Positions 5,114-64,000 of a stretch of DNA of 64,000 nt are shown piece after piece. The notes under the pieces are model-generated. The model was not told the DNA's origin, searched no databases, and was given only the letters and a program-made list of their open reading frames with translations. Location of the stretch: contig JAFGPC010000122.1 of the NCBI GenBank assembly GCA_016926155.1, forward strand, positions 1-64,000, written 5' to 3'. Numbering within the stretch: the stretch's first letter is position 1; the number at the start of each line of letters is the position of its first letter. Both the position numbers and the translations under genes were made by a program. Source of the DNA: Sedimentisphaerales bacterium. Lineage in GTDB: Bacteria > Planctomycetota > Phycisphaerae > Sedimentisphaerales > Anaerohalosphaeraceae.

Positions 5114-6172
5114 ATGGCCAGAATTGTGTACGGTGTTGCCGGTGAAGGATTCGGACACAGCAGCCGGTCGCACCTGATTGGGCAACATTTGATCGAGCAG
5201 GGTCATGATCTGCTCTTTGTCGCATCCGGCAAGGCATTGTCCTATCTGGCCAATCACTTTAAGGATCGAGTACGCCCGATTGCGGGATTGTCATTCGCCT
5301 ACGACAAAGGTCGGGTTCGTTGTCTGCGCACAATCCTGAAAAACATGGTCCACTATCCCCGAGCATGGAAAAGCAATACCGATCTGTATGAAAATCACAT
5401 CGAACCGTTTAAACCGGACTTGGTGGTCTCGGACTTTGAGCCTTTCAGTGCCTGGTGGGCATGGCGAAATGATGTACCGTACCTCAGCGTGGACCATGAA
5501 CATCTGCTAACCCATTGCGTGCTGGAACACCGTCCCAGCGATTGGTTTGCCCGAACCGCAGCCTATGTGGTTACCCGTTCGTATTATTTCCGCGCCCGCA
5601 AATATATGGTCCTGAACTTTTTCGATGCGCCGGTTCGCAGCCCTAAAACGATTGTGACACCTCCTGTAATTCGTCCTGTTGTCGCTATGTTTCAATCCGA
5701 GCATAAGGAACATATTCTGGTCTATTCAACGGATTCCACCAACCGAGAAAGTCTGCTTCATACCCTTGCACACTTTAAAAATGATCGATTCTATGTCTAT
5801 GGCTTCAACGAAGACAAGGAAACAGAAAACTGCCGTCTTAAAACGACTTCCACTGAATCTTTTCTTGCCGATCTTTCCACATGTCGTGGTGTTGTCGCGA
5901 CAGCAGGATTTTCTCTGATCAGTGAATGCCTGTATTTTCGCAAGAAAATGCTCTTGGTGCCGGTACAAGGACAATACGAACAAATCATCAATGCACAATA
6001 TGTAGATCGCCTGGGGCTGGGAATGACTTCTGAAAGTCTGGATGAACCAGCAATACAACGTTTTCTGGAAATCGTAGATCCTCCGATCCCGGAGAATCCA
6101 CGGATTCTCTGGCCGGACAATGGGCAATTCCTGGACTGTTTTGACCGAATACTTGCCGAAGTAAATCACTGA
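5114..6172 (+). CDS. GT28-like glycosyltransferase family protein (MJ1255-type)
   Basis: A 352-residue GT-B-fold protein. The N-terminus MARIVYGVAGEGFGHSSRS carries the glycine-rich acceptor loop with GHSSR typical of MurG-related, MJ1255-type enzymes. The middle has DLVVSDFEPFSAWWAW. The C-terminal half has the donor-side motif ATAGFSLISECLYFRKKMLLVPVQGQYEQ, which is the nucleotide-sugar-binding stretch of this group. Members transfer sugars to lipids or surface glycans. There is no signal peptide or transmembrane helix, so it likely acts at the cytoplasmic face of the membrane. Its 3' end overlaps the convergent SGNH hydrolase gene by 7 bases. Donor and acceptor are unknown. Confidence 0.8.
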   Translation: MARIVYGVAGEGFGHSSRSHLIGQHLIEQGHDLLFVASGKALSYLANHFKDRVRPIAGLSFAYDKGRVRCLRTILKNMVHYPRAWKSNTDLYENHIEPFKPDLVVSDFEPFSAWWAWRNDVPYLSVDHEHLLTHCVLEHRPSDWFARTAAYVVTRSYYFRARKYMVLNFFDAPVRSPKTIVTPPVIRPVVAMFQSEHKEHILVYSTDSTNRESLLHTLAHFKNDRFYVYGFNEDKETENCRLKTTSTESFLADLSTCRGVVATAGFSLISECLYFRKKMLLVPVQGQYEQIINAQYVDRLGLGMTSESLDEPAIQRFLEIVDPPIPENPRILWPDNGQFLDCFDRILAEVNH

Positions 6173-7698
6173 TCTCCTTCAAGAGGATCGAATGAACCGG
6201 GTAAATCTTCCGACGGTTTGATAGCATGTCCGCGACTCCAGCGACGCAGTCGTTCCAAACGCATGGTTCCGTGCATAAAATAGGCTTCATTGAGAGAGGA
6301 TAAATGTATTTGCCATAGATCGTCCCTTTGCTTTTGCCAGCCCTGGACAGGAATGATCAAATGTATTTTTTCCATCGCCTGCAATAGAGTATCCGCCAGA
6401 AGTTGATGACCTTCAATATTGGGATGCACGTGATCCAGCAGCCACTCATCACCACAGATCCCATCATCGGTGTTCTGCTCAAATAACGCTTGTGCATCCA
6501 CCATGGGAAGCTCGAAACGTATAGCCAGTTTATTTATCGAATCACGCATCGGCTCCACAATCCTCAAAGGACAGATATCTTGTTCTTTCGCCCGTATAAA
6601 CCAGGTTTTAGCCTCTTCGAAACGTCCCATCCTGTGGTAACATCTTCCGATCCTATACAGTAATCCTGCATGTTGATCGTCGATCCGGGCCGCTTCGAGT
6701 AATAGTTTGAGTTTTTGCTGTACTTCGGACCAGGGAAGTTGACTTGCGTGTCGCCATCGTTCCAGGATTTTCTTCTGATCGGTAGAAGATATACCATTAC
6801 GGAACTGTGACTTGAAGGGTGGGCAATCCTTGAGATTGAATGCCGGATTGACAAGAATTACGGGAATATGGGCCTGGCGGGACTGTTGAAGCATGATTTC
6901 AAGGTTACAATAGAAGTGTTCTATGATACCCTGCCGCCAGACCTCATCTCGATGATAGGATTCCAGCCCTTCTTCCATGTCAAGCTTTGTCCGCACTTCT
7001 ATGGGCAAAAACGTATGAGACAACTTTTCTTGCCCGCTTTGTATGGATACAATCCATTCGTTGGCCAGGGCAAAACTTCGAAGACCAAGCAGGACTCGAT
7101 GAAGTCGAAGGAGAAAACGCGGTGTTTTCTTGAGTATGGTATACGCCCGGTCTTCTAGAAATTCATTATGACCAGTATAAATAAGGAATAAATCGGGTTC
7201 ATATTGTAACAACTCACTAAAGATCGGCCTCAGGCGATAACTGGCATAAGAAATACCGCCGCAATTGATGACCTCCCATGTGATATCAGGTTGTGCTGCC
7301 TGCAGATTCATCTTTAACCAGGTCGGAAAGGCCGTTTCAACTGAGTAGGGACGGCCCTGCACTGTTGATCCACCCAGACAAAAGATGCGGAACGTTGTCG
7401 GTTCCTTAACAGCGCTAAAAGACTGAGGACGAAAATAAGTCAGCCGCTCTTCGGGAATATGGCAGCGAGTTCCCGCATCATCTAAAACAAACAAGGGACG
7501 AATCCCGGCAAAGGAGACGAAAGGATCGTCAAGTAAAACCGAAGGAGCGGAAATAAATATCCGTAATACGATCTCCAAAGCAATTAACGGAAACAATCCC
7601 AGCAGGAATGCCAACGTACGAAACAGAAAACCCCGAATGAATCGGTTTCGGAAAAGTTTATAATGATACGAACAGCTTGGATCGGCTACCTGTGTCAT
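6166..7698 (-). CDS. Membrane-anchored SGNH/GDSL hydrolase with TPR-like insert
   Basis: This 510-residue protein has one hydrophobic segment (about residues 25-50), so the rest is probably extracytoplasmic. SGNH blocks are visible: the serine in CLGGSTVQG (block I), Gly in NCGGISYAS (block II), YTGHNEF (block III, Asn) and the catalytic pair in DHVHPNIEGH near residue 430 (block V, Asp and His). Between blocks III and V lies a helical TPR-like insert (RIGRCYHRMGRFEEAKTWF). SGNH enzymes are esterases or acyl hydrolases and often remove acetyl groups from glycans. Related proteins are frequent next to exopolysaccharide or sulfotransferase genes in planctomycetes. The neighbouring glycosyltransferase supports a glycan role, but the substrate is unknown. 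Confidence 0.8.
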   Translation of the reverse strand: MTQVADPSCSYHYKLFRNRFIRGFLFRTLAFLLGLFPLIALEIVLRIFISAPSVLLDDPFVSFAGIRPLFVLDDAGTRCHIPEERLTYFRPQSFSAVKEPTTFRIFCLGGSTVQGRPYSVETAFPTWLKMNLQAAQPDITWEVINCGGISYASYRLRPIFSELLQYEPDLFLIYTGHNEFLEDRAYTILKKTPRFLLRLHRVLLGLRSFALANEWIVSIQSGQEKLSHTFLPIEVRTKLDMEEGLESYHRDEVWRQGIIEHFYCNLEIMLQQSRQAHIPVILVNPAFNLKDCPPFKSQFRNGISSTDQKKILERWRHASQLPWSEVQQKLKLLLEAARIDDQHAGLLYRIGRCYHRMGRFEEAKTWFIRAKEQDICPLRIVEPMRDSINKLAIRFELPMVDAQALFEQNTDDGICGDEWLLDHVHPNIEGHQLLADTLLQAMEKIHLIIPVQGWQKQRDDLWQIHLSSLNEAYFMHGTMRLERLRRWSRGHAIKPSEDLPGSFDPLEGDQ

Positions 7699-7891
7699 CA
7701 GGATTTAGTCACTATAACCACAGAGAGTAGTATGGATAAATATTAAATAGAAATTTCCTCTCTGACTTGAAGGTTTCGGTCAAGTCTTTTCACAATCCCA
7801 GACCGGATAAATAGAACCTTCCGGACGATTGGGAAATCATTTATGATTACATTCGATGAAGAATAAAGCCTTTTCCCAAATAAAACCGGGA

Positions 7892-7972
7892 TTATTTCGC
7901 CTTCTTCATCACCAATGCAGCCCCAAGGGCCAATACCGACACAACAACCAACACAATGATCACCATCTTCAT
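7892..7972 (-). CDS. Candidate 26-residue single-pass membrane peptide
   Basis: Reading the minus strand from 7972 gives ATG, 25 further codons and TAA at 7892. The peptide starts MKMVIIVLVVVSVL, has about 18 uninterrupted hydrophobic residues and ends in a lysine-rich tail (VMKKAK), which fits a one-helix membrane protein with its C-terminus in the cytoplasm. A purine-rich GGAAAGGG lies about 7 bases upstream. It sits alone in the otherwise empty 950-base gap before rex. Such small proteins are often real and unannotated, but a chance hydrophobic frame cannot be excluded from one sequence. Confidence 0.42.
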   Translation of the reverse strand: MKMVIIVLVVVSVLALGAALVMKKAK

Positions 7973-8498
7973 GCGAACACCCTTTCCAAAACTCGCCAGT
8001 CCCGGACAATGCGTTCTCAATGGGTTTTCCGGCCCATTGTATCCCTTGTCGGTTAACCAATGGAGAGGGCGAAATTTATTATGCCCTCTTTCTGTAAGAT
8101 TCTACAAGAACAGTGCTGATGATGCAATTCATCTAAAGTCAAGAATTTGATTTCTATCGTTGGCCTACTTTTCATACACGGTTTCTTGCTGTAATGGACA
8201 GTATTTAATGGCATTTTGAGGATAGCAAACAATATATCTTATTGTAGTCGTAAGCCACTGTCGTGTTTCAGGTCTTAGTACATTTTCTATGCCCGGATTT
8301 CCTGCAGTGTGAGCCTAGGATAGAAAGAATTCAATGTATACATGGGTGTTTCTTCCATGCATATCGAGTTTTCTGAAAGCATGAACTCCAACTACTTAAA
8401 CTTTGACCAAAAATGTGAAAGTTTACTGGAAGAAGAACGAAAAATATAAATTTTATTAAATCTATTCATCCACTTTAATTCATTTATAAGTCTTGATA

Positions 8499-8504
8499 TA
8501 TAAT
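8499..8504 (+). promoter_or_regulatory. Possible -10 element upstream of rex
   Basis: A perfect TATAAT lies in a very AT-rich stretch about 140 bases before the rex ATG, with no good -35 partner 16-18 bases upstream. A TTGACA at 8570-8575 also lies in the leader but has no well-spaced -10. Either could serve the hydrogenase operon. The call rests on hexamer similarity only. Confidence 0.25.
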
Positions 8505-8610
8505 ATAGATAGGAGACGACTTCCATCTTTCGTAAATGAAAATACATTTGATATTTCTCTTTTTTCGATTTGACAATGGGCGATCCTGGGTCACAGTTTA
8601 ATTAGTCCGT

Positions 8611-8628
8611 TTGTGAATGAGAACTCAA
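8611..8628 (+). promoter_or_regulatory. Candidate Rex operator in front of rex
   Basis: The 18-base site TTGTGAATGAGAACTCAA matches the Rex consensus TTGTGAA-N4-TTCACAA at 11 of 14 defined positions, with a perfect left half-site. It lies 17 bases before the ATG that I choose for rex. If the site is used, Rex would repress its own operon, including the hydrogenase, and be released when NADH rises relative to NAD+. The right half-site is degenerate, so this is a suggestion. Confidence 0.35.
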
Positions 8629-8645
8629 GCACTAATAGGCGTAAG

Positions 8646-9287
8646 ATGAAGTTCCACCGGATTCCAGACGAGACTGTTCGGCGTCTACCGATTTATCTTC
8701 GAGGATTGCTTCTGCTCGCAGAACAGGGAAGAGAACATGTCAGCAGTCATGAGTTGGCGGATATACTTCACATCAAAGGCCCCCAAATCCGTAAAGACCT
8801 GTCTTATTTCGGCGAATTCGGCACTCCCGGCGTAGGATATGGCACAAAGGAATTGAGTGACTGTTTACGAGACATCCTGAACCTGAACTGTCCGCATAAA
8901 GTGGCTCTTGTTGGCTATGGCAATCTTGGGGCTGCTATTCTACGTTATTCAGGTTTTCGATCATATGGCCTGAAAATTACGGCTATCTTTGAAAACAATC
9001 CACGTAAGATTGGTCGTATCGTACAGAATATTCGGATTCAAGATGTGAAAGAAATCTCCTCCCTGAAGCGTAAAAAAATTGAACTGGCCATTTTGGCAAT
9101 TCCCGCTGAAAGTGCTCGAGAGGTAACGGAACGACTGGAACAAGCAGGAATTTTGGGGATATTAAACTTTGCGCCATCCTACTGTATCGATGCGCGAAGC
9201 AAGGTTAAAATTATTACGATTGATATCGGTATGGATCTGGCCAGACTACCTTATTATTTGCCGATAAAAGCTGAAATTGCAGGATAA
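8646..9287 (+). CDS. rex: Redox-sensing transcriptional repressor Rex
   Basis: Rex binds DNA through an N-terminal winged helix and senses NADH/NAD+ through a C-terminal Rossmann domain, controlling fermentative and hydrogen metabolism. The 213-residue form from the ATG at 8646 starts MKFHRIPDETVRRLPIYLRGL, the usual Rex N-terminus. The recognition helix region is HIKGPQIRKDLSYFGEFGTPGVGY, and the nucleotide-binding motif is VALVGYGNLGAAI. A GTG at 8613 would add 11 residues, but it has no ribosome binding site and overlaps the candidate operator. The stop is 18 bases before the first hydrogenase-operon gene, so rex is probably the first cistron of that operon and regulates it. Confidence 0.93.
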   Translation: MKFHRIPDETVRRLPIYLRGLLLLAEQGREHVSSHELADILHIKGPQIRKDLSYFGEFGTPGVGYGTKELSDCLRDILNLNCPHKVALVGYGNLGAAILRYSGFRSYGLKITAIFENNPRKIGRIVQNIRIQDVKEISSLKRKKIELAILAIPAESAREVTERLEQAGILGILNFAPSYCIDARSKVKIITIDIGMDLARLPYYLPIKAEIAG

Positions 9288-50562: not shown

Positions 50563-50754
50563 TTACAATTCTTTTATAGGAGTCCTCATCTCGGATCGTC
50601 TCGTTGTTTCGATAAGTACCTGAATATTCTCGGCGGGTGTCTCCGGCGCGAGTCTGCATCCTGAACTGGGCACAAATCTGGTTTTGCCATACTCTTTGAC
50701 CTTATTGAGGATCCTCAGGGCCTCGCGTTCGACATCCTGCGGCGTTCCCCCTTT
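50563..50754 (-). pseudogene. Uroporphyrinogen-decarboxylase-like gene, 3' fragment
   Basis: The last 63 codons before a stop at 50563 read GGTPQDVEREALRILNKVKEY, SSGCRLAPETPAENIQVLIE and TTRR. This is the C-terminal pattern of URO-D-like proteins (GTP-x-x-V-E...GCR-x-x-P-x-TP-x-EN-x-x-x-x-I). In the same frame the upstream codons switch abruptly to an IS21 transposase fragment, so the 5' part was lost. It lies 90 bases before the AGE gene on the same strand. Before decay, the unit was probably URO-D-like, AGE, URO-D-like. Confidence 0.65.
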
Positions 50755-51095
50755 GTCGATGAGTAAAGTCCGGGGGACCCCGCCGAAGTGCCAGAAGGCA
50801 TTCTCTAAACAACGAATGAAAGTGTCGGTGTTTTGGTGATACACCGCTTCACTATACCCCTTCCGGGAGAAACTCAGAACCATCCGAAATACGTGAGGAC
50901 GCTTTCGTTTCCCATCGGACCTGACCACGGGGGCACCGGCGCCGAAATCGATCTGCGCCTCCTGGCCGGGCCTACATTCCATCCGGCGAAATGGGATTGG
51001 CCGATCCTCTCCCAAGCGTTTGACAAAGCGACGGTTGGATTGGATCTTGTGGAATGCTCTTAGTTTGTGATTTCCCAGCCCCGCTTGTAGGAGGA
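50755..51095 (-). mobile_element. IS21-family transposase (IstA) internal fragment
   Basis: About 110 codons match the start of the IstA integrase core: SNRRFVKRLGEDRPIPFRRM, PGQEAQIDFGAGAPV, the KRKRPHVFRMVLSFSRKGYSEAV strand and ENAFWHFGGVPRTLLID, the second catalytic Asp region. The N-terminal helix-turn-helix, the rest of the core and istB are missing. The left end joins a URO-D fragment and the right end joins a lipoprotein gene. No inverted ends or target duplication were seen. It is inert. Confidence 0.75.
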
Positions 51096-52129
51096 TCAAG
51101 GGATATTATTTCAAGCAATAGTTCTTTTGTTGTTTGGGTTATATCTTTATTTGATATACTGTATTCCCCTTTTATGTTTACATCATATTTCAATGTTAAA
51201 TCATAAAATAGCTCATAAGCCGCCGCTTCAGCTAGTCTTTTAGAAGAAATCTCAAATATGGTATCCATTATTTTAGCAAACGTATCATTATCACCGAATG
51301 AGAAATGGCCTCCAATCACAAAACCCAATTCAAGGTCGCCGAATAATCTTACAGCCGCACCTGATAATATTTTCGACTGATCTGCAGCCAAACCGGATAG
51401 GTATCTTATGGCTTTAAGTTCATACTTATCAATCCCTTCTTTGCCGATCTCTACTATTTTGCCTTTTGCTTCAAGTTCTTTGTCGTCTTTTATAAACCTA
51501 TATGCAGTAGACGTTATCTCTTTGGGATTCGTGTAAAACACAGGCACTTTCAAGGTGCCATCAAAAAGAGCTTCAAGAAATATTGCAACTACGGTAGTAA
51601 TAACATCATTTCCAATTTTATTTTTTATTTCAGGACGTTTGTATACAGCACCTTCTCGGTCTATAAAACCTTTGTCGTCAGAATAATAAGCTAATAAATA
51701 ATATTTAATTATTTCCTGCACATCAGAATCTTCCGCATCCTTGGTGAGGCCTGCTCCATAGTGACTTCTTAATAATGTCGTAAATTCTTCGATGTTTTTC
51801 GTTGATATATCTCTAGGCTTTATTTTAGATGAAACTCTTGGAACTGAGAATTCATATGCAGCCGTAATCATTTTAACAATTAGAGGATTCTTAGCCATAG
51901 AAGGAGAAAGTATTTCATTGCCTCCCTTCCCTTTATTACCAATCTCTTCATATGCAATAAGAAGGTTTTTGTATATATTATTATGTTCTGCTCCTGTTTT
52001 TGCTAAAGGTCCATTGAAGTAGGCATTACGATTTAATGTTACAAGGTTATCATTTACTTTTACTGATGATGAACACCCTGTAAGCATAGCAGAAACAATA
52101 AGTATATATGTATATTTGTAAAGTCTCAT
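50972..52129 (-). CDS. AT-rich lipoprotein of unknown function, C-terminus altered by IS fragment
   Basis: A 385-residue protein with a lipoprotein signal (AMLTGCSSS, Cys19), mostly helical and rich in Lys, Ile and Glu. I do not recognise the family. The gene is clearly more A/T-rich than its surroundings, which suggests transfer. The last 40 or so residues (from about SLDPPTSGAGKS) read through the IS21 istA fragment in another frame, so the native C-terminus has been replaced. It stands alone; the integrase pseudogene lies 233 bases upstream. Whether it is still functional is unknown. Confidence 0.6.
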   Translation of the reverse strand: MRLYKYTYILIVSAMLTGCSSSVKVNDNLVTLNRNAYFNGPLAKTGAEHNNIYKNLLIAYEEIGNKGKGGNEILSPSMAKNPLIVKMITAAYEFSVPRVSSKIKPRDISTKNIEEFTTLLRSHYGAGLTKDAEDSDVQEIIKYYLLAYYSDDKGFIDREGAVYKRPEIKNKIGNDVITTVVAIFLEALFDGTLKVPVFYTNPKEITSTAYRFIKDDKELEAKGKIVEIGKEGIDKYELKAIRYLSGLAADQSKILSGAAVRLFGDLELGFVIGGHFSFGDNDTFAKIMDTIFEISSKRLAEAAAYELFYDLTLKYDVNIKGEYSISNKDITQTTKELLLEIISLDPPTSGAGKSQTKSIPQDPIQPSLCQTLGRGSANPISPDGM

Positions 52130-52362
52130 GACACAACTCCTTTTCCAAATCGATCCCTGTTTTATGGAATGGTTAGTTACTTGAGGAAAGAAGCAATTTA
52201 ATAAGTGTCATGGAAACGAAGAAGAATACTTGTAGGTATTCATTGCGCCCATTTAAACCTCAATGACCCCTTGTTATGAGTTAATGAGTATTCTTCGATT
52301 GTTAATATGTCAATAGGTTTTCTTACTTTTTTCTATATAACATATAGGGTTTTCAGTGGATT

Positions 52363-53537
52363 TTATCCCCTCTTTCTTGCCACTTCTACCGCCCTGCTGA
52401 GGTCCTGCTCGGCGTAGATCTCCGTGGTCTGGATGCGCTTCTGGCCCAGGACGGCCTTTGCGGTTTCAAGATCATACTCCTTGCGTATCCGCGTGGCGGC
52501 GGCATGACGTAACTGGTGGGGTGTCCAGTGAGGGACAAGGACGGGCTTCTCAACTCCTTGCTCTTTGGCCTTCTTGCGGATGTCCCGGTTGGCGGCGTTG
52601 ACGGCGTACTGAATAGCCCGGCGGTAACTGTCCTTATTGAAGTGCGGTTCGTGCCGTTTGTGGAAGTTATGACCTCGCTGCCCTTGAGATTCTTCCGGCT
52701 TAAAACAATACTCCTTTGCCGGCCGCAGGAGAAACGGCCTGAGTACTTCCTGAGCCTGAGGACCGAGAGGAACAACACGCTCGTAATCTTCCAAGTGACG
52801 GCCTTTGTGTTCAGAAGGCCGGTAGATCCAGATGGAATCGGAACGATCAATATCACAGGGACGCATAATGCATACCTCGGTACTCCGCATACCGGTGAGC
52901 CAGTGGATACGTACCATGGCTCGCAGAGTATCGCTCAGATACGGCAGGACAGCCTCTACCGTCTCCTCTGAGACCGGAGTCACCTTACGGGACTCTTGGC
53001 CTGGGACCGCCCTCTTTTCAAGCCCTCGAGCGTGGAGAGACGCTGGAAGACGTGAGACGGTACGATCTCCTTGGATACACCCCATTTGAACATACGCTTG
53101 ATCATGCCTACCCTCTGATTGATTGTGGTCCGGCAAAGACCTTTGTCAATCATCCCGGACCGAAGTTGGTCCAGTAATACCGGCCCAAAGTCTTCGATAG
53201 GCATATCTCCATGCTCTTCCGTTAAAAAGTCCAGGGCGTACTTGATATTGAACGATTCGTTTGTATGGGAGTAGTAGTCCCTTGCAAAGGAAAGGTACAT
53301 GTCGCATAGTTCCGCAATCGAACCGGGAATATAGACTGCCCTGCTTTTGTTCAGGTGCTGCAGTAAGATCTCCTTGGCCACCTCAACGGCAACGTGATAA
53401 TCCTTTGTGGCGTATTTAGCGCCTGCTGGTTTGAGAGGAATGGATTTCCTTTTTGTCTCCCCCGGTAAGGTGACATTCCACCAGTAACGATCCCGGTTTA
53501 AGTAGATGCTTCCCGATACAGAATTTTTTCCTGACAT
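52363..53537 (-). pseudogene. Tyrosine recombinase (integrase), frameshifted
   Basis: Two frames together make one integrase of about 390 residues. The first (53537 to 52980) has the N-terminal beta region and the SAM-like core-binding domain (FNIKYALDFLTEEHGDMPIEDF, TTINQRVGMIKRMFKWGVSKEIVP). The second, readable from about 53000 to 52363, has the catalytic domain: Arg in LTGMRSTEVC, Lys in EHKGRHLE, HQLRHAAATRI and Tyr in TTEIYAEQ. The frames meet near 52990, where GCCAAGAGTCCC lacks one base, probably a G. The ribosome binding site GGAGGG is intact. It lies next to a tRNA-Pro fragment, the probable attachment site. The element it moved is presumably stuck. Confidence 0.85.
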
Positions 53538-53620: not shown

Positions 53621-53652
53621 AAGGCTCGTAAGTCTTTATTCTTACGAGCCTT
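53621..53652 (-). terminator. Rho-independent terminator behind the tRNA-Pro fragment
   Basis: A perfect 12-base stem, AAGGCTCGTAAG (53621-53632) with CTTACGAGCCTT (53641-53652), has an 8-base loop and, on the minus strand, a T tail running into TTTTTTATTG. It lies 6 bases after the tRNA 3' end and looks like the tRNA gene's own terminator. Confidence 0.85.
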
Positions 53653-53957: not shown

Positions 53958-54929
53958 CTATTGCTCCTTGGCTTCGATTATCAGCTTTTCCCAGATCTCG
54001 ATGTCTGCTTGTTGAGGGGGGCGGGAGAGCGTGTAGTAAGCGGTTGCATTCATGACACCTTCGCGGCTGATCCGCGACGGCAAACCGGCACTCTCGCCTG
54101 TCTCCACCGTAATATGCCCTTTGACTGAATCATAGGTGCAGTTACGGAGATAGCCCAGAAGTCCTTTGGGCTTGACATGCGGATGATGCAAGACGGGCAG
54201 GGAGTTTTTAGCAGGACCTTGGTTCAATGTCTCATGACCTGTCACAGCCAACATTCCCTCGCCATTAGTTTCGCCTAGCCATTCCGTATTCACAGATGGC
54301 GCTTCACCATGCAGTACCGACGGAAGTTGACGTTCACAATTCCACGCTTCCTGGTTTGCCAGTTTCTGCAAGGCGGCATTCGCTCTAAAGAGCAACTCTT
54401 GGATCGACCATAGATCGAGAAGGAAATTGTGCTCCTTGATTTTTAGCTGTCCACAGTCATTGCCCTGGGGGCATGATTCACACCCACGGGCAAGAGCACT
54501 GATCAACTTCAGCAATTCATTGGCTTCTAAGATTCGTCCTGCACTGTCCACAAGTACTTCAAAGGATTTACCCGATAGTTCTATAGCAGCATCAGTCAAG
54601 GATAACTCATGTAGGAAATCCGTTCGCTTTACCGCCACATCCTCAAATGAGAGACGATAACAGAGAGAAGAATCAGAATGTTTTGAACCTATGGGCTGGA
54701 TGAGATAAACAAGAGTGAGATTTTCCATAAGTTTCTGCCCGCCCGAATCTGAACTTGGGTTATCAAACGCAACGCTTACCTCACGCTCCAACGTAGCCTG
54801 CCACCTCACGTACTTCAGTTCCTGCATGTCACCGGACATACTTCTAGACTTCGAGGAACCGCAGCCAGCGAGAATACATCCCGCCACGACAGTGAGGATG
54901 GTGGGCACTAAGGTCTGCGAGCTTCGCAC
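53958..54929 (-). CDS. Lipoprotein of unknown function, RHS/exosortase operon
   Basis: A 323-residue protein with a lipobox (CILAGCGSS, Cys23). The mature domain is mixed alpha/beta. It contains a four-cysteine cluster (CESCPQGNDC) near residue 155 and a repeated theme of short strands. I do not recognise the family. It is the last gene of the minus-strand RHS/exosortase operon, and its start lies 22 bases inside the SDR gene. A structural or accessory role at the outer surface is plausible from the lipid anchor and the neighbours only. Confidence 0.75.
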   Translation of the reverse strand: MRSSQTLVPTILTVVAGCILAGCGSSKSRSMSGDMQELKYVRWQATLEREVSVAFDNPSSDSGGQKLMENLTLVYLIQPIGSKHSDSSLCYRLSFEDVAVKRTDFLHELSLTDAAIELSGKSFEVLVDSAGRILEANELLKLISALARGCESCPQGNDCGQLKIKEHNFLLDLWSIQELLFRANAALQKLANQEAWNCERQLPSVLHGEAPSVNTEWLGETNGEGMLAVTGHETLNQGPAKNSLPVLHHPHVKPKGLLGYLRNCTYDSVKGHITVETGESAGLPSRISREGVMNATAYYTLSRPPQQADIEIWEKLIIEAKEQ

Positions 54930-55963
54930 ATTGCCTCCTCTCTGGAAATTAAAGATAGATTGTCACACAAGAATTCGGTTAGCTTCGCACAGATAGGCAT
55001 TGCCTCGCCGAGTTCCTTCGAAATCCTTTCGTTTGAGTACACGTTGCCTGCGTTGACAAAAGGCAGATACACGTCCAGTAACTTCATAAATTCGCTCTTT
55101 TCACCTGCATTCCTGCGCTTTTGCCACTCTTCACCTGCTATGCACGTAACGGACTTACCATAGAATTGTGCCGCAACATCAATGCATTCTCCACACGTAA
55201 CAGAGGCACCGAGACCTGCGGAAATGTGATAGCAATTATGTTCCTTGTGATGCTTTCTAACCAGTTCAATTATAGCTCTGACTACATAATCAACCGGGAC
55301 TATATCCACCCATGTATCTTCCCGGATTGGCAACACACCAAGTTTAGACGCGACAGGAAAGAACCAAAGTATTTCTCTGGCAAATCGTCTAAGTGGAAGG
55401 TTACGGGAGACAACGATACTGGGGCGTACACATATGACGTCCAGGTTATAAGACCGAATAAGCTGTTCCGTGTTTCGCTTCGAGAGCACGTAACTATTTG
55501 CATAGCCCTGGAGAGCATTGTTTTCAAGCAAGACGGTGTTGCACGGATGAGTGCATACCGAGGCCGTACTCATGTGGAGTATTTCAGGTTTAGACGGCCA
55601 AGTAGACACTTCCTCAAGCAGATTGGTCACACCAACTGGATTAACGTCATATTCTGAGTCTGACTTGTTGAATCTTGTCTCGCCGGCGGTGTGTATTACA
55701 TGATCACATCGGTCAATCAATTGATAGCGAACACGTTTGTCAATGCCTAAGGCTGGTTTCCGGATGTCGCCGCAAACCGCGTGCAGATTTGCACACAATC
55801 TTCTGTCGACATTTTTAATGCGAGATAGAAGGCGTCTCATAGCCATGTGTTGATCGGCTGCGCGAACCAATGCCCACACTACGTATCCGTCCCTCAGTAG
55901 TTCTGCGCATAATTCTCCACCGATGAAGCCGGTTCCGCCTGTCAAAAATACTATGTTGCCCAT
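54908..55963 (-). CDS. Thioester-reductase-like extended SDR (NAD-dependent epimerase/dehydratase family)
   Basis: A 351-residue NAD(P)-binding protein with the extended SDR motif FLTGGTGFIGGELCAELL, DHVIHTAGETRF after strand 4, catalytic Ser and Tyr-Lys in LHMSTASVCTH and YANSYVLSKRNTEQLI, and the downstream VRPSIVVSR. The pattern is closest to the NAD_binding_4 group (acyl-CoA and thioester reductases), although some nucleotide-sugar enzymes look similar. No acyl carrier or adenylation domain is attached. It sits between the exosortase-like gene and a lipoprotein gene, so it may make or modify the molecule to which the sorted protein is attached; this is inference. Confidence 0.75.
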   Translation of the reverse strand: MGNIVFLTGGTGFIGGELCAELLRDGYVVWALVRAADQHMAMRRLLSRIKNVDRRLCANLHAVCGDIRKPALGIDKRVRYQLIDRCDHVIHTAGETRFNKSDSEYDVNPVGVTNLLEEVSTWPSKPEILHMSTASVCTHPCNTVLLENNALQGYANSYVLSKRNTEQLIRSYNLDVICVRPSIVVSRNLPLRRFAREILWFFPVASKLGVLPIREDTWVDIVPVDYVVRAIIELVRKHHKEHNCYHISAGLGASVTCGECIDVAAQFYGKSVTCIAGEEWQKRRNAGEKSEFMKLLDVYLPFVNAGNVYSNERISKELGEAMPICAKLTEFLCDNLSLISREEAMCEARRP

Positions 55964-56013
55964 AAGGTCCTGAAATAGCGGTAATCTTAGCCGATTTGTT
56001 GTCTCGATTGGTC

Positions 56014-56670
56014 CTAATACCGCGGTGTCAGATTTCCTTTATCCACTGTCACTCTCACATTCATCCCGGCCCAGATTATAACTAGCAGCGCCAACGTTAA
56101 GTACCACAGTACATAGTCCGGCAGGTCATGACTAACCCACCGATTGTAGCCCCTATTTGTAAGGTTAATACCTACCCATATCCTCGCTATATTCAAGGGA
56201 AACCATACTAGTATAACGAGAATACCTATGACGCAACTTCTCCAGAACCGGCGTGAACAGCTTAGTGCGAAAGGCATAGCGATAAGCAACCAATCCACAT
56301 AAGTGCATTCATCGTTAATAGGGACGACTATATTGTTAGCTAAAATGCGATTCCCCGATACTTCCACCTCGTATCCATTCTCTTGCAGGACAAACATCTC
56401 TGCCCGCATAACCCATTGTATCAAGAAACTCCAGTTACAAGTATAGAATAGTACTGCCCCAAGAAAGACCGCGATAAGAATCAGGTGAGTATTCCGTGGA
56501 AGAATTATTCTGTATGGTCCGATTTTGTAGACACATGAAGTCATGGGCTGAGTTGGTGGCTGAGGTGCAAGGACCGTATTATGATCACATCGAAAGAACA
56601 AGAGCAAATTGTGATAAAGATAAAACATTGCAAAACAAAGGCCTTTTAGATGGCGATCCTTATCTCTCAT
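56014..56670 (-). CDS. Divergent exosortase/archaeosortase-family protein
   Basis: A 218-residue membrane protein with about five hydrophobic segments. It has the three catalytic residues of exosortases and archaeosortases in the right order and spacing: Cys122 in INDECTYVDWLL, Arg163 in FPLNIARIWVG and His181 in WVSHDLPDY. These transpeptidase-like enzymes cut C-terminal sorting tails. It is shorter than PEP-CTERM exosortases of the XrtA type. Its ATG overlaps the stop of the upstream lipoprotein gene (ATGA). The RHS protein two genes upstream ends in a tail of the kind such enzymes process, making it the likely target. Confidence 0.78.
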   Translation of the reverse strand: MRDKDRHLKGLCFAMFYLYHNLLLFFRCDHNTVLAPQPPTQPMTSCVYKIGPYRIILPRNTHLILIAVFLGAVLFYTCNWSFLIQWVMRAEMFVLQENGYEVEVSGNRILANNIVVPINDECTYVDWLLIAMPFALSCSRRFWRSCVIGILVILVWFPLNIARIWVGINLTNRGYNRWVSHDLPDYVLWYLTLALLVIIWAGMNVRVTVDKGNLTPRY

Positions 56671-57785
56671 CTAACAGGTTCAGTAAGCATGTCAACTGCA
56701 AATAAAATATCTGGTCGCTCATCCCTCGTATAATCATAACACAAAATAGTCTTCCAGTCCTCGATCAGGAAGAACGAGTTCGTGTCAGGAAAAAAATTCA
56801 ATAGGTGTGTCTTCGAGCCCAAGTATTTTTCATGCTGGAGAGAAAAATTTTCATCCAAAAGCATTATTTTCTTATCCGATTCAATGGCTATCCAGTCTGT
56901 CAATACAAGAACATTCAAATATGGATCTTTCGTTTCGTAAAGCAAATGATCACCGATAAAGAGACTTGTTCTGTCCTGCACTTTTTCTTGCGCATCTTTG
57001 CGATGCGACGTACTGTAAACGGGTTTCCCGCGAAAACTCCCTTTTAGCCCAATATCAAAGTCTTTCTTTAGGCTGTCGACGATTTTGAACCTTTGGCCAT
57101 CCCATGATACTTTCGCAATTGTATTCTGGCCGATGGTTACGTATAATTCATTATTACTTGACCACATAGGAAAGCCAGACATCTCGATGCCCGTCCCCTC
57201 ACAAGTCTTTCCCCCATCGAACGAAACCGCAAGTACGCCACTATTTAGCAATTGATTTGTTGGCATGATTGCTAAGCCGGCTAAGATTGTTCCATCCGGA
57301 CTCCACCTAAAGCATGATAAAATGTTTGGGTAGCCGTCTTTACTGATTACGGTCGAAACGTTGTCATTTGAAGTGGCATTGAACATGACCAGCCTACCTT
57401 CATCCCGCCTAAACCATCTCCTAGTGCTTCGTTCATAGTAACCACCGCTGTCATCATAGATCTTGGTGAAAGCTGCATAATATAACTGGTTGCCGTGAGC
57501 AGGCCTCCACGCCATATCTCTAATTACCCACTCTTCCAGTTGCTGACAGCTTTTGCGCGAAGAGTCATCACCCAAGAATAGCAAGACGGGTTTCGTTTCT
57601 GAAACGGCAGGCCGATCCCATCCTTTGACTTTTGAACCAACCAGTATGGCCAATATATCACCGTCGGGATTCAAATACGAAAAAGCAGATATACCTGTTT
57701 CAGTATCTGCTTCGTCGTTGCACCCGCTTAGCAATAACAGAACTAACACCAACATCAAATATGTAATGTTGCGTTCAAGTCTCAT
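56667..57785 (-). CDS. Propeller-type lipoprotein, RHS/exosortase operon
   Basis: A 372-residue lipoprotein (LLLLSGCNDE, Cys about 20). The mature part has repeats of a TolB/WD-like propeller: LSCFRWSPDGTILAGLAI, GIEMSGFPMWSSNNELYVTIG, and others with W-S-P-D-G-like turns. I do not know a specific function; propellers of this kind usually hold protein partners. The ATG at 57785 lies 11 bases inside the end of the RHS gene, and its stop overlaps the exosortase-like gene, so all three are translationally linked. A start at 57839 would add 18 residues with no signal character. Confidence 0.72.
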   Translation of the reverse strand: MRLERNITYLMLVLVLLLLSGCNDEADTETGISAFSYLNPDGDILAILVGSKVKGWDRPAVSETKPVLLFLGDDSSRKSCQQLEEWVIRDMAWRPAHGNQLYYAAFTKIYDDSGGYYERSTRRWFRRDEGRLVMFNATSNDNVSTVISKDGYPNILSCFRWSPDGTILAGLAIMPTNQLLNSGVLAVSFDGGKTCEGTGIEMSGFPMWSSNNELYVTIGQNTIAKVSWDGQRFKIVDSLKKDFDIGLKGSFRGKPVYSTSHRKDAQEKVQDRTSLFIGDHLLYETKDPYLNVLVLTDWIAIESDKKIMLLDENFSLQHEKYLGSKTHLLNFFPDTNSFFLIEDWKTILCYDYTRDERPDILFAVDMLTEPVR

Positions 57786-60700
57786 ACGGCAGCCTCCAGT
57801 ATCTGAATAATCCCACCAATAACAAGCATAACACAGCAATAACTAAGATTCCATGTGCCGATCCCCATGGATCTTCGAACGGCTGTCCGGTTTCCGCAAA
57901 AGCGACACAGACTTCATTGCATGAACCGAGTTCTGCTGCGTTCGCAGCAGCTTCGCACAAAGTCAGCGGACCCTTCAGGGCATTGTCCATTATTTCTTCG
58001 ATTAGCTTTTTCACAGCCTCTTTAGTCATTGTGTCCAGCTTGTCTTGTGACAATCCAATGGCCTGACAATAACAATATGCAAAACATTCGTCTTCTGAGT
58101 AGGTATGGTCGGGGTCCCATTCCAACAGAATGTCAATGGTTTCCTGTATAGGATTAGCATCCAAGCCGTAAGGATCTGTGTAGATTAGCGGTTGCGACAT
58201 CGTCAGCTGATATAGTGACATTCCATTGGCATATTGTGGGTACTCGAAATACGATCCTTTCTTAAGATCCGATACCCCATTCAAGAAGAACTCCAGATTC
58301 TTTGAGCGTGCAATTGCCAAGTATGTTCTTGTAAATGTGCTATGTTTAAGAGGGCGAGCCGTTGGTCCTGTCTTTCCAATGAACCGGGGATACTTACGAA
58401 ACAGTAATCTGATACTAATGCCCAGAGGATCATGGGTTAGAAACCTTCCAAGTTCCGGGCTGTAATCACGATGGCGATAATACATGCGACAAAGATTGGA
58501 ACCGTCAAGGCTGTCCAATCTACGCCCGGTGAAGGTGTAGGGATTCGCGTAGGCGCTTACGGTTCGGGGGGTGTATGAGGCATCGGTCACATGAACCTTG
58601 CCATAAGCGTCATACTCGTAGCGTTCGACAACCGTCCAGGCCTCATCGATCCAGCCGATCAGGGCGGCCGTAGAGTACAGGTGATCGTGGGCGTAGTAGT
58701 AGTCGTTTGTGCCGTCATTCATGACGAGGGGCTCGTCGATGTAGTTACCGTAGACGAAGTAGCGTTGCTGATTACCCGCGCCATCGTGCTCGGCTAATAC
58801 CTGCCACTCGGGGCTGTTGTAATAAACTGTTGTTGTCGAAGCAACCGCATCGACCATACATATCCGCCGGCCCAGCGCATCATACGCATACTCGGCCACG
58901 TCGTTACTCGATGAATCCTCAATCTTCACCACGCGATTCTCATAGTCATATGTGTACTGGTAACCATCTTTGTCTACGGACAAATTGCCCGCGTCATCGT
59001 GCGACATGGAACTACCACCTATGGTCGTATACCGGTTCGTTGATGAATCTACTGTGAAGTTGATAGTTCCGTCCTCCCGTAAGGTCTGATTACCGGCCCT
59101 GTTACCAAGGTCATCCATCACGAAGGCCTCGGTATCGCTGTCATGATATGTCACATCTGTCAAACGTTCCAGATCATCGTAAGTGTATTCATTGTACGGA
59201 TCGCCTGCGCGGTGGTCAAACGTTTTCCGATAGATATTATTCTCATCAGCCACATACGAATACCCAAACTTGACCATAGACTCCCCATAATCGATATCCG
59301 TAACCCGGCCGATATTGTCGTAGGCAAAGTCGGCCGTAACATTCGGTACGTTATACAACCGTCGCGCAACCCGCGGGCCGACATACTGGTACTCGAACAG
59401 CGTCGTTGCATTCCGCGAAAGGGTGTCAATCCGGCCATCCCACGTATTCGTGCGATCAATTGTGGAACCGTCTGGATAGACGGTCTGCGTGCGGTTGCCG
59501 GCATTGTCATAAGCATACTCGATATGCTTTGCCGCCAGGCCGCCGATTGTCTCCCACGCGTCGGACATCCGCCCGATGTCGTTATACTCAAAAACCGATT
59601 GGCTGATGGTGGACTGGCCTTCCTGCTTTTGAGCAGTGAGTATCCGTCGCAGGCCGTCGTAGGTGAAGGTCTCGATTGTGGTCACCGAATTCACAATTAC
59701 CTGCTTCTGCGTCATATTGTAGACGTCGTCGTAGGTATAGTAAGTCTCCCAGCCCCGCTGATCGGTACGTTTGGAGACCTTGCCTGCAGGGGTGTAGGTA
59801 TACTCAATCGTCGCGGCGTCGGGGTAGGTAATCTTCGTTACTCGGCCGAGGCCATCGTATTCATATTCAGTCAACTGCCGAGTGTTCGGATTGGCACTGT
59901 CAGCATACCCGGCGATCCATTGCCGGCGTCCCAAAGCATCGTAGCCGTACTCCGTAATCTGATTAATGCCATCAGGGTTGCTTTGAGCATCGTACGGATC
60001 CAAAACCATCAGCGTCCTTCTGCCCAGAAGATCGTATTCATAGGCCACGATCACCCCATTGGGGCGGATTTCCTGGATCCGGTAACCAAGCGCATCATAG
60101 ACGTATTCGGTCGTCTGCCAGCTTGCATCAGACTGAACATCCGGGTTCTGCGGTTTTTCAATGCGGTATGCCAATCGTCCCTGCAGATCATAAAAGAAGT
60201 CAGTTGTTTGCAGGATGTCATCGCCGATCGGATTAAGGTCCTGTTTCTGAATACGTGCAACGCGGCCTGCCTCATCATAAGCATAAATGGTGACATTGCC
60301 ATCCGGGTCTTCGGTCCAAGCCTTGCGGTCGAGAACATCGTATTCATGAGTGGTGGTAGCCGCAGTCGCATCGTTCATGCCGTAGCCGCCATAGTAGATG
60401 GTCTCTTCAAGCATTGGACCGTTAGCCCATGCATACGCGTACCGGGTAACCTTGTCTGTATTCGGATCTGAAGGCGTTAATTCGCCCGTAGTGGCATCGG
60501 CCATCACCGTATATTCAACAAGGTCACCGGCCTCATTGTAAGCAAACCGCGTCTGCTTCAGGGCAATGTCATCTTCTAAGTTCTCCGGTGTGTCGTTGCA
60601 ATCATAAGCAATTTCTCTGATCACATGTCCCAGTTTATCCAGTGTCCGAACACGATAATGTCCCTCTGCGTCGGTTGTCTTGATTAATCTGTTCAGGCCG

Positions 60701-62913
60701 TCGTACTCATATCTGGTTGTGTTGCCGCACGTATCGGTCATACTGATGCGGTTGCCATTCAGGTCGTAGGCTAACAATATATCCTTGTCATTGGGATCGG
60801 TCACCTTGACCGGTAGTCCTCGCTCGTCATAAAAGAACTGCGTTTGCTGTTCCAGGGCATTTGTGACAATTTTTAGCCGTTCGTTCTTGTCGTACTCATA
60901 TGACGTTTCATTACCCAGTGTATCAGTCTTCCTCGTAAGATTGCCCCACGGATCGTACGTGAATTCAGTGATTTGCCAGGGATTCAACGGATCTGAGGTT
61001 TCCCGCTTGACTTGTTTGCGATAGCCATTTTGGTCATAAGAACAAAGAGTCTCATACCCCTCGGGCGAGATTACCTTGGTGATCTGATCGTGGGTATTGC
61101 AGAAAACCTGCACTATGCCACCGTCGGGCTTGGTCACGGTTTCTATCCGGCCCAAGTCGTCATAGGTGTAAGAGGTTGTCAAGTTGAGATGTTCGGGTTC
61201 TCCTCCGAAATCTTCGACAACCTCCTGCAAGAAGCCTGTCGTTTCGGAATAGACATATTTCCTCACAGCTCCCGCGGGATTAGTGTATGTCTCGATCTTG
61301 CCAGCGGTAGTATAGGTTAATTCCTCGACAGCGGCTATTAGACCGTTTGGAGTCTGGATTTCGGGATGGGTGATCTTTATGACACGTCCAACTACATTGT
61401 ATTCGTACTTTGTCTCGTTACCCATTGCATCAGTTATTGTATTGGGTTCGGTGTAATAAATAGGATCATATTCATACAAGATGGCGATGACATTAAGGTT
61501 GTTTGGATCGTTGGGATCGCCGGGTGACGTCTTGTGGTAGATGCCGGTCCGCATATGGTCAGCATTATACGTGTAGGCAGTGCAGTTGCCCGCCGGATAG
61601 ATGACCAGCGTATTCCGCATCAAGTCATCATAAAAATATTCAGTGACATACTGGTTTGGATCGGAGCTCGGATCAGTCATGAAGACAATCTGCTTTGTTC
61701 TTAAACCTGCGTCATTATAGTAAACCTCTTTTCTATTTCCTTCGGGGTCGATAATTGTGGACACTTTGTTCACAGCGTCATATGTAATGTCGTGACTTCC
61801 TCCGGCTCTTTCCTGTTTATACACCCTGTAGACTTGGCGACCGCTGTCATAACTATAATAATTCCGCACCAACATTTGACTTTGAGGATCAAATGCTGCT
61901 ATCATGTTATGGTTGCTATACATATACGTGAACTTTATTCGATTTTGCCCCGCGTATTCATCTGTGTCAGGGTACGCTACTTGGCTCAGATCATAAGCTG
62001 CTGAGTAATAGTAATACCATCTGCGATCACCGGTCATGTCATAGATTTGCGACAGCCGATGGCTACTGTTGTAATACAGTCGTATGTCGCGTCCCAGCGT
62101 ATCTGTGATGCGTGTGATAAAGCCTGTGATTGAATTATGTTCAAACGACACCTGGTTACCGTAGTCGTCCCGAATGTGCTTAAGCCGTCCATAGTCATTT
62201 CCCTCTTCGGTGGTGAAGTGATACGTCAGATTCTCATTCAACACTACCAGATCGAAGCCTGCAGGATCAATTGTCTGGACAAAATAATGGGATGAATTGC
62301 CAGCCAGTGCATAGACATCCGGATTTGTAGATACTTTGGAATACTCTTTTGTGCCCGCTTCATGTGTAACATATGTCAAGCTCGTACTATCGACAGTGAT
62401 AATCCGGGCATCATAGTTGATTGTCCAATTGTAGCCATATGGAGATTCATATTTCCTCTGATTGCCGTAACTGCGGGTAATGATAATGGGAATGGGACCG
62501 TTAATACGAAGATCCGTTACTGAAAAATGAAACTCCCCCGTGCTTGAGGTCACGGGATCGGCAACATTAGTGCTATAACATGGCGAGGTGTCATCGTCGC
62601 AGTCGCTACCACCTCCGCTGCCGCCCATCCCAGGGCCGGGAAATGGGCCTGAAAGGAATTCAGAGTCGATGGATCTGTTCCCACTACTGCCACCGCCACT
62701 GCCTCCACTTGGACCGCCGCTGTCAGAACAAGGATTTGGGCCGGGACCGCCGTCCGGGGGATTAGTCGGAGGTGTGGGCGGGGGGACACAGCCCAATGCA
62801 CTTGTACCCAAATTATATGAATCAAAGGGAGACTGTGCTACATCTACAAATGGTATGAGAACAACTACAGCTATTCCAATGGTCATGCACATCAATAGGA
62901 TTCTTCCGTTCAT
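57775..62913 (-). CDS. Large RHS-repeat protein with C-terminal hydrophobic sorting-like tail
   Basis: A 1712-residue exported protein. Order: signal peptide (1 to about 26); a Pro/Gly-rich linker (about 40-110); a DUF6531-like opening (DPVTSSTGEFHFSVTDL, ITRSYGNQRKYESPYGYNW); some 40 RHS/YD repeats (YDxxGR) to about residue 1490; and a core closing in YYRHRDYSPELGRFLTHDPLGI. A further YQLTMSQPLIYTDPYGLD, the usual last piece of the core, lies about 65 residues later, so the core is split by an insert. There is no recognisable toxin. The last 125 residues are Cys-rich and end GILVIAVLCLLLVGLF then RYWRLPYET: helix plus basic tail. The ATG at 62913 has AAGGAG 8 bases upstream. Confidence 0.9.
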   Translation of the reverse strand: MNGRILLMCMTIGIAVVVLIPFVDVAQSPFDSYNLGTSALGCVPPPTPPTNPPDGGPGPNPCSDSGGPSGGSGGGSSGNRSIDSEFLSGPFPGPGMGGSGGGSDCDDDTSPCYSTNVADPVTSSTGEFHFSVTDLRINGPIPIIITRSYGNQRKYESPYGYNWTINYDARIITVDSTSLTYVTHEAGTKEYSKVSTNPDVYALAGNSSHYFVQTIDPAGFDLVVLNENLTYHFTTEEGNDYGRLKHIRDDYGNQVSFEHNSITGFITRITDTLGRDIRLYYNSSHRLSQIYDMTGDRRWYYYYSAAYDLSQVAYPDTDEYAGQNRIKFTYMYSNHNMIAAFDPQSQMLVRNYYSYDSGRQVYRVYKQERAGGSHDITYDAVNKVSTIIDPEGNRKEVYYNDAGLRTKQIVFMTDPSSDPNQYVTEYFYDDLMRNTLVIYPAGNCTAYTYNADHMRTGIYHKTSPGDPNDPNNLNVIAILYEYDPIYYTEPNTITDAMGNETKYEYNVVGRVIKITHPEIQTPNGLIAAVEELTYTTAGKIETYTNPAGAVRKYVYSETTGFLQEVVEDFGGEPEHLNLTTSYTYDDLGRIETVTKPDGGIVQVFCNTHDQITKVISPEGYETLCSYDQNGYRKQVKRETSDPLNPWQITEFTYDPWGNLTRKTDTLGNETSYEYDKNERLKIVTNALEQQTQFFYDERGLPVKVTDPNDKDILLAYDLNGNRISMTDTCGNTTRYEYDGLNRLIKTTDAEGHYRVRTLDKLGHVIREIAYDCNDTPENLEDDIALKQTRFAYNEAGDLVEYTVMADATTGELTPSDPNTDKVTRYAYAWANGPMLEETIYYGGYGMNDATAATTTHEYDVLDRKAWTEDPDGNVTIYAYDEAGRVARIQKQDLNPIGDDILQTTDFFYDLQGRLAYRIEKPQNPDVQSDASWQTTEYVYDALGYRIQEIRPNGVIVAYEYDLLGRRTLMVLDPYDAQSNPDGINQITEYGYDALGRRQWIAGYADSANPNTRQLTEYEYDGLGRVTKITYPDAATIEYTYTPAGKVSKRTDQRGWETYYTYDDVYNMTQKQVIVNSVTTIETFTYDGLRRILTAQKQEGQSTISQSVFEYNDIGRMSDAWETIGGLAAKHIEYAYDNAGNRTQTVYPDGSTIDRTNTWDGRIDTLSRNATTLFEYQYVGPRVARRLYNVPNVTADFAYDNIGRVTDIDYGESMVKFGYSYVADENNIYRKTFDHRAGDPYNEYTYDDLERLTDVTYHDSDTEAFVMDDLGNRAGNQTLREDGTINFTVDSSTNRYTTIGGSSMSHDDAGNLSVDKDGYQYTYDYENRVVKIEDSSSNDVAEYAYDALGRRICMVDAVASTTTVYYNSPEWQVLAEHDGAGNQQRYFVYGNYIDEPLVMNDGTNDYYYAHDHLYSTAALIGWIDEAWTVVERYEYDAYGKVHVTDASYTPRTVSAYANPYTFTGRRLDSLDGSNLCRMYYRHRDYSPELGRFLTHDPLGISIRLLFRKYPRFIGKTGPTARPLKHSTFTRTYLAIARSKNLEFFLNGVSDLKKGSYFEYPQYANGMSLYQLTMSQPLIYTDPYGLDANPIQETIDILLEWDPDHTYSEDECFAYCYCQAIGLSQDKLDTMTKEAVKKLIEEIMDNALKGPLTLCEAAANAAELGSCNEVCVAFAETGQPFEDPWGSAHGILVIAVLCLLLVGLFRYWRLPYET

Positions 62914-62957
62914 CGCTTTGACTCCTTTTCGTGAGTAGTGCAAACCTGCTTCTTATT

Positions 62958-64000
62958 CTAATCACGGTTCAGGTACGTTGTGGCTAGCGGAGCATACTTG
63001 CTGTTTGGAAACTGCTCCAATAGTTGAGTGAATTGGCTGCGGATCATTGAATCCGCCTCAGCTTGTGAAATCACTCCATCTTCTGCGAGCCTCTCGTAAC
63101 AGTCAGCAATCGCGAAACAGCAATAGTCAGCATGTTCGAATCGAGCATTCGCCTGGTAGGCGCTTTTGAACGCTTCTGTCGCCTTACCATACTGCTCCAG
63201 AGCACGCAAAGACAACCCCTTTGCGTAAAGGAAGTTGGCTGCAGCGGGATTGCCGGCATCCAATAGCGTGAGTGCTTTCTCAATCACCTTGACTGCGTTT
63301 TCGTAACTCTCTGTGATGCCAGAATCGTTGCCCGCAAAATAGTACTCTTCCCCAATCAAAAGGACAGCCTCAGCTACAAAGCGACTATCGCGATACTCGG
63401 TCATCAGCGTATCGACATTTGTCTGAGCGACGGCGTCCTGCCCCTTACGAACGGCAATTTGGCCAAGGTTCTTGATAGCCCATAGGGCTTCGGTTGTTCC
63501 AGGATAGGTGCTTACGATGTCGCCATACATATCCACTGCTTCGTCATATGCTTCAGCGTCTTTCCATAAGTTGGCTATTTGTAAGGACGCCTGTCGGAAT
63601 TTGGAGTGATTGCCAAAAGTGCCTCGCAATTGCGCCCAAACGGTTCTGGCTGCTTCGAAATCTCGATTCTCAATTCGCAGTGCAATAATATTCTTTTGAG
63701 ACCACAGAGCATAGTCGCTGTCAGGGTAATGCTCCGCAACATACTTGAAAATATCCGCCGCCTTGACGGAGAATCCTGCTTTTTGCCACTCATTGCCGGT
63801 TTCACAAAGTGCCTGAGCAACATTGGGATGGTTCTTGAATACGGTCTTTAAAAAAGTCAATGCGGCTTCTCCGGCGTCCACATCCACTTCGCGGGCGTAA
63901 ATTGTACATAGATTCTTCTGCGACCAGATGGAATGATTGGCCCCAGGATAGTTGACGACCGCGTATTCATAAAGCCGGATTGCTCTCGCGGTGTCGCCAT
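62958..64000 (-). CDS. TPR-repeat protein, 5' end outside the window
   Basis: The frame is open from the stop at 62958 to the window edge, giving at least 347 residues. It consists of TPR-like helical pairs, for example RAIRLYEYAVVNYPGANHSIWSQKNL at the edge, DEAVDMYGDIVSTYPGTTEALWAIKNL, and GKATEAFKSAYQANARFEHADYC, closing FPNSKYAPLATTYLNRD. No start or signal can be judged. It lies 44 bases upstream of the RHS start on the same strand, so it is probably part of the same operon, perhaps as an assembly or outer-membrane partner (YbgF/BamD-like repeats). Confidence 0.85.
   Translation of the reverse strand, partial: GDTARAIRLYEYAVVNYPGANHSIWSQKNLCTIYAREVDVDAGEAALTFLKTVFKNHPNVAQALCETGNEWQKAGFSVKAADIFKYVAEHYPDSDYALWSQKNIIALRIENRDFEAARTVWAQLRGTFGNHSKFRQASLQIANLWKDAEAYDEAVDMYGDIVSTYPGTTEALWAIKNLGQIAVRKGQDAVAQTNVDTLMTEYRDSRFVAEAVLLIGEEYYFAGNDSGITESYENAVKVIEKALTLLDAGNPAAANFLYAKGLSLRALEQYGKATEAFKSAYQANARFEHADYCCFAIADCYERLAEDGVISQAEADSMIRSQFTQLLEQFPNSKYAPLATTYLNRD

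Follow-up and report, generated by a model that had tools for sequence, protein, structure and literature searches.

We found that a six-gene operon of a planctomycete, Sedimentisphaerales bacterium, places the gene for a small exosortase close to that for an RHS shell protein, and that this pairing recurs in unrelated planctomycetes of several families. The operon probably represents a dedicated exosortase system in which the RHS shell is both paired with the enzyme and processed by it, with cleavage being the presumed form of processing. The gene cluster is rare, and its recurrence suggests a means, not described before, by which RHS proteins could be attached to the cell surface. We refer to the analysed stretch of 64,000 nucleotides as the window.

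The operon and its RHS protein

As the original prediction held, the operon consists of six minus-strand genes that overlap or nearly touch (Table 1). All of the open reading frames were found, with overlaps of 4-22 nt and gaps of 14-50 nt. The TPR gene continues beyond the window edge to a start at about 64850, and the whole protein has 630 aa and a signal peptide. Its stop lies 14 nt from the RHS reading frame and 44 nt from the likely RHS start, an ATG at 62913. The N-terminal signal sequence of the RHS protein is MNGRILLMCMTIGIAVVVLIPFVDVAQS. The RHS gene overlaps the following lipoprotein gene (ATG at 57785) by 11 nt, and the latter overlaps the exosortase gene by 4 nt (ATGA). A 50-nt gap separates the exosortase gene from the SDR gene, which in turn shares 22 nt with the final lipoprotein gene.

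Table 1. Features of the RHS-exosortase operon in the window
Feature	Position	Strand	Details
TPR-repeat protein, C-terminal part	62958..64000	-	operon gene 1
RHS shell protein	57775..62943	-	1722 aa by TTG start; PF05593, DUF6531, RHS core
RHS C-terminal tip after DPYGL, proposed sorting signal	57775..58161	-	Cys-rich region, FEDPWG, hydrophobic helix of 15-16 residues, tail RYWRLPYET
Lipoprotein, reported as 390 aa	56667..57785	-	lipobox LSGC; all-beta by weak prediction
Small divergent exosortase/archaeosortase	56014..56670	-	C122/R163/H181; motifs ECTYVD, NIARIW, HDLPDYVLW
Extended SDR, NAD_binding_4 (fatty-acyl/thioester reductase-like) type	54908..55963	-	GGTGFIGGE and YVLSK motifs
Lipoprotein without known family, final gene of the operon	53958..54929	-	lipobox LAGC
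Intrinsic terminator-like hairpin closing the operon	53621..53652	-	12 bp stem and T-run

The 390-aa protein had been described as a propeller lipoprotein. Its lipobox (LSGC) agrees with the lipoprotein part of this description, but the propeller could not be confirmed: no family matched, and the single-sequence AlphaFold model, which is all-beta, is unreliable (pLDDT 38.5). Directly 3′ of the cassette lie an IS21-type fragment and split tyrosine recombinase ORFs (window 50563-53537, minus strand), and these remains may be the reason for the patchy spread of the cassette.

The RHS protein contains DUF6531, RHS_repeat and Rhs_assc_core domains, and so has both the shell and the core domain. The tip after DPYGL is 128 aa long and includes 7 Cys; its helix, ILVIAVLCLLLVGLF, has a mean hydropathy of 3.4 and is followed by the tail RYWRLPYET. 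The original prediction was right in describing this end as a Cys-rich region, a helix and an Arg-containing tail with no toxin, in that the tip matches no known toxin family. PADLOC also returned no match for the five operon proteins scanned (all but the exosortase). The end had further been likened to the tripartite plan of exosortase substrates. The helix and basic tail bear out this likeness, but the tail has no PEP, VPEID-type or IPTLxxWG motif and matches no CTERM model. The tail sequence occurs once in the genome, and a tail this short is hard to search exhaustively. As a query over 397 genomes it gave chance-level matches only, and therefore the tail is not traceable by sequence alone.

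The same genome carries a second RHS gene on another contig, C105 (locus L035, 8042-10162, plus strand), with a small lipoprotein gene following it. The encoded protein is 65% identical to the window RHS protein over residues 1190-1507 and then has a different tip, which by this alignment is a natural tip exchange. The C105 protein lacks a terminal helix, and there is no exosortase gene on its contig. Relative to this paralogue, the window RHS core is longer by about 50-60 residues, which are inserted after GRFLTHDP and before NxYxY/DPYGL (window 58140-58500, minus strand).

RHS cores are known to self-cleave at core Asp sites. It is conceivable, but rather unlikely, that the core cuts itself at DPYGL, and that the exosortase acts only on the freed 128-aa Cys-rich tip, anchoring or releasing it as a small domain for surface display or signalling, with the shell taking a separate path. 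This is a variant of the dedicated system proposed above, and the probabilities of the two overlap. Both core Asp positions are present (GRFLTHDP, YTDPYGL), although the long insertion between them may disturb cleavage.

A small exosortase and its relatives

The exosortase-like protein has 218 aa, matches long exosortases over their C-terminal half and, judged by its family matches and alignment, is a true, short exosortase/archaeosortase relative. It narrowly passes the cut-off of the Pfam family PF09721 (26.6 vs 25.7 bits) and falls narrowly below that of TIGR04178 (22.6 vs 23), which its relative G705a passes at 23.9. The best model among the named subfamilies is ArtE (E=1.7e-9), with 37.9 bits against a subfamily cut-off of 95. 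Neither the window protein nor its relatives score above the cut-off of any named subfamily (XrtA-XrtY, ArtA-ArtF), and the XrtH model does not match the window protein. The proposed residues Cys122, Arg163 and His181 align with the triad of canonical exosortases from the same genome, in agreement with the original assignment, and the triad is kept in all 7 intact subfamily members, although these are mostly just 18-38% identical to the reference row. An AlphaFold model made from three sequences is too weak for judging the proximity of the triad residues (pLDDT 52.6, pTM 0.34), and a PDB search returned no relative of the exosortase. The genome encodes four other exosortases, on contigs C212, C71, C21 and C118, with no RHS gene within the fetched flanks.

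Relatives were sought by profile with their neighbours ignored, and none was picked for its gene context. A search of the class with the single exosortase sequence gave mostly weak matches in which other exosortases were dominant, and a three-row profile over the phylum was needed. The ArtE model was unspecific over the class, matching most exosortases, and led to the XrtH loci among the controls described below. Among 397 genomes of the class there was one clear relative, in genome G115, which has the motifs ECTYxD, NxxRxW and HDLPDYxxW in common with the window protein. Scanning 84,980 genomes with the window and G115 proteins yielded the G115 record and Phycisphaerales bin11 (CP070827; here G406). 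The three-row profile then gave genomes G705 (two loci), G669 and G567. G400 contains a remnant. A further match to this profile, in G412, was an XrtH-type protein on inspection and was left out of the count. No additional strong members turned up when the classes to which G705 and G669 belong were searched with profiles, and searches of viral contigs and plasmids gave no relatives.

Outside the window, the subfamily thus comprises six intact relatives and one remnant, all from Planctomycetota. The seven intact members, the window protein included, form a single clade (support 96/93) beside the XrtH group and apart from both XrtH and other exosortases; in view of the long branches, this tree is moderate evidence for a separate clade. 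That only seven intact members are known, and that G400 has only a remnant, we count against a dedicated RHS system.

Association of the exosortase with RHS genes and tails

The proposed co-occurrence of the two genes in planctomycetes was recovered. An RHS gene lies beside the subfamily exosortase in 5 of 8 loci, counting the window and the G400 remnant, and in none of 39 control loci. The controls were other exosortase loci, covering 497 kb, with the G400 locus moved to the subfamily side. The association has a Fisher p=4e-5, or 2e-4 without the window; these p-values are a rough guide only, because the controls share ancestry, and the loci are few, with several fragmentary or at contig ends.

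The arrangements vary. On contig C253 of G705, RHS, exosortase and SDR genes are consecutive with 4-nt overlaps, in the same order as the window trio, and the SDR matches that of the window over its full length (360 aa, 32% identity, E=8e-54). On contig C478 of the same genome, a 2520-aa RHS gene is convergent with the exosortase gene, which is followed by an SDR remnant. In G669 the RHS gene is about 100 nt upstream of the exosortase gene. In G406 the RHS C-terminal ORF, a piece of 200 aa only, shares the strand of the exosortase gene and is 1 kb upstream of it. No RHS gene is near the intact exosortase genes of G115 and G567, and adjacency is therefore not universal. The original idea of an exosortase dedicated to an RHS protein thus stands as regards co-occurrence and the link between tails and enzyme, but not as regards adjacency in these two genomes. 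The arrangement of a dedicated sorting system, in which an enzyme lies beside a presumed single target, was nonetheless found repeatedly across genomes.

We also surveyed 25 distinct RHS C termini. A terminal helix with a basic tail occurs in 5 of the 6 RHS proteins linked to the exosortase or to a degenerate relative of it, whereas the 19 others, among them the C105 paralogue, all lack it (p=1e-4, or 5e-4 if the window is left out; to be read with the same caution as above). A terminal helix with a net-positive tail is present in the window RHS protein, in those from the two G705 loci, and in those of G406a and G406b, the last of which has the degenerate relative as its neighbour. The G669 protein has a helix and RR, after which the frame continues into a lipoprotein-like domain. 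This RHS protein (locus L182, 9687-12794, minus strand) also has a PA14 domain, and its in-frame fusion gives the impression of a merger between an RHS gene and the lipoprotein gene that follows it in the window. Together with the C105 paralogue, which serves as a control, the survey indicates that the helix acts as a suffix tied to the enzyme. Across the loci, no strict motif precedes the helix; F-x-DPW is common to the window and G406a only. This lack of a shared motif weighs against a dedicated system, as do the convergent genes of G705 C478, the fusion in G669, the short G406 piece, the Arg lost from the exosortase-like protein of G406b and the missing RHS neighbours in G115 and G567.

In many of the control loci, an XrtH-like gene adjoins one for a protein that ends in an IPTxSEWG-type tail, so that in this class a gene next to that of a small exosortase often encodes the enzyme's target. 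These XrtH-like exosortases (L107, L110, L113, L127, L130, L131 and others) also adjoin a second membrane protein of about 200 aa with the pattern PWPG...FRRxD; family f19 has several such loci per genome.

These data bear on the idea that the RHS helix is a plain membrane anchor and that the exosortase serves other PEP-CTERM-like proteins, with the genes being neighbours through, e.g., shared mobility or regulation. The tails lack a conserved recognition motif, the genome has four other exosortases, and two intact subfamily members have no RHS neighbour, all of which would fit. However, RHS and exosortase genes are paired in several families, the tail goes with the enzyme, and the XrtH loci show that an exosortase's neighbour is often its target. 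We therefore consider a plain anchor improbable.

We give similarly little credence to a polymorphic, membrane-active toxin (for pore formation or membrane targeting) in the RHS tip with a downstream, perhaps non-catalytic, exosortase-derived immunity protein: a variable tip with an immunity gene after it is typical of RHS proteins, the exosortase gene is directly or nearly downstream of the RHS gene, the C105 paralogue has a different tip and the G406b version lacks its Arg, but the triad is kept in seven intact members at mostly 18-38% identity, unlike in fast-evolving immunity proteins, a homologous SDR accompanies the RHS-exosortase pair, a basic tail follows the helix every time, and the tip contains no known toxin family.

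Partner genes, a possible lipid acceptor and known systems

Returning to the dedicated exosortase system, we propose that the N-terminal signal sequence directs the RHS protein into Sec export. The C-terminal helix would then stop the Cys-rich tip in the inner membrane and leave the Arg tail on the inner side. Using its Cys-Arg-His site (C122), the small exosortase would cut just ahead of this helix and, in analogy to archaeosortase A, transfer the new C terminus to a membrane acceptor, an amino-lipid or the like. The lipid-type enzyme encoded next to it, in the window the acyl-reductase-like SDR, may help to make this acceptor, and the two lipoproteins and the TPR protein may help in folding, transport or display. 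The outcome would be a lipid-tethered shell. We regard this order of steps as the most economical one.

We know of no established acceptor for bacterial exosortases. The genes that accompany the subfamily are of lipid type in several loci. The window SDR is of the NAD_binding_4 type, which is related to thioester and fatty-acyl reductases. In G406b, a tight run consists of RHS, lipoprotein, exosortase relative and serine palmitoyltransferase-like genes. The exosortase relative in this run has detectable homology (E=3e-7, vs 0.84 for a control membrane protein) and keeps the Cys and His, but has lost the Arg of NxxR. At locus L173 (G406:C1:1000000-1016000; operon at 4910-8751, minus strand), the RHS tail has a helix and RRR, and genes for a PlsC-like acyltransferase and a sulfotransferase are near. 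The G406b/L173 operon is perhaps a sphingolipid-linked variant. In G406a and G115, a relative of Pyr4-type terpene cyclases follows the exosortase. The order exosortase, Pyr4-type transmembrane terpene cyclase relative and 259-aa membrane protein (L137, 10565-12001, plus strand; L138, 7616-9091, plus strand) is conserved between two genomes from the same genus.

The targets of archaeosortase A in Haloferax are C-terminally lipid-anchored with the aid of phosphatidylserine synthase and decarboxylase homologues; the position of artA beside pssA in methanogens was the first hint of this lipid link, and both genes are needed for the C-terminal lipid anchoring (PMC7157517). Because of this precedent and the lipid-type partner genes, we favour a lipid over a glycan as the putative acceptor. 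Attachment of a lipid to the RHS C terminus is a serious possibility that we would put a little below even. A broader proposal, in which an RHS-specialised exosortase subfamily couples tails to a special lipid from its partner enzyme (SDR, serine palmitoyltransferase or terpene cyclase) and so makes a lipid-tethered RHS surface capsule, is offered more tentatively.

VPEID-CTERM/XrtE is an example of a dedicated exosortase system. As in systems of this type, the gene for the exosortase studied here adjoins that for its presumed only target, which has a helix and a basic tail at the C terminus. By contrast, the target is an RHS shell, the enzyme belongs to a separate short subfamily and there is no PEP/VPEID-type motif. 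The XrtH/IPTLxxWG-CTERM systems that are common in the class likewise pair a small exosortase with a neighbour that ends in a helix and a basic tail, but the window enzyme is in a different clade, and the target and motif differ. More generally, dedicated sorting pairs are an established and defined category, and single-target sorting enzymes tend to adjoin their target (PMC3237569). Archaeosortase A (PGF-CTERM, Haloferax) is of the same superfamily, with an active-site Cys and, in several archaea, a neighbouring lipid-synthesis gene (PMC7157517), whereas it has many PGF-motif targets and phosphatidylserine-type enzymes in place of an RHS target and an acyl-reductase-like SDR.

In the set of papers that we searched, there was no published exosortase-RHS link of this kind. 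The nearest published idea is the SrtB-SecF-like-WapA system of Streptococcus suis, in which an RHS/WapA protein has its own cognate Cys transpeptidase next door (PMC12704120). However, SrtB is an unrelated Gram-positive sortase and its WapA carries a toxin, while the planctomycete enzyme is an intramembrane exosortase and no toxin was found. The exosortase belongs to a known enzyme class, for which RHS proteins would be a new class of target.

For RHS shells that no type VI needle carries, the route to the surface of diderm bacteria and the means of remaining there are largely an open question. A one-enzyme, one-target operon with a lipid-type gene makes both RHS surface retention and the exosortase acceptor testable. 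It also brings RHS biology and sorting enzymes together in a Gram-negative context, in parallel to SrtB-WapA of Streptococcus suis. If the lipid-tethered RHS capsule is true, it would be a new route of RHS display or delivery for diderm bacteria.
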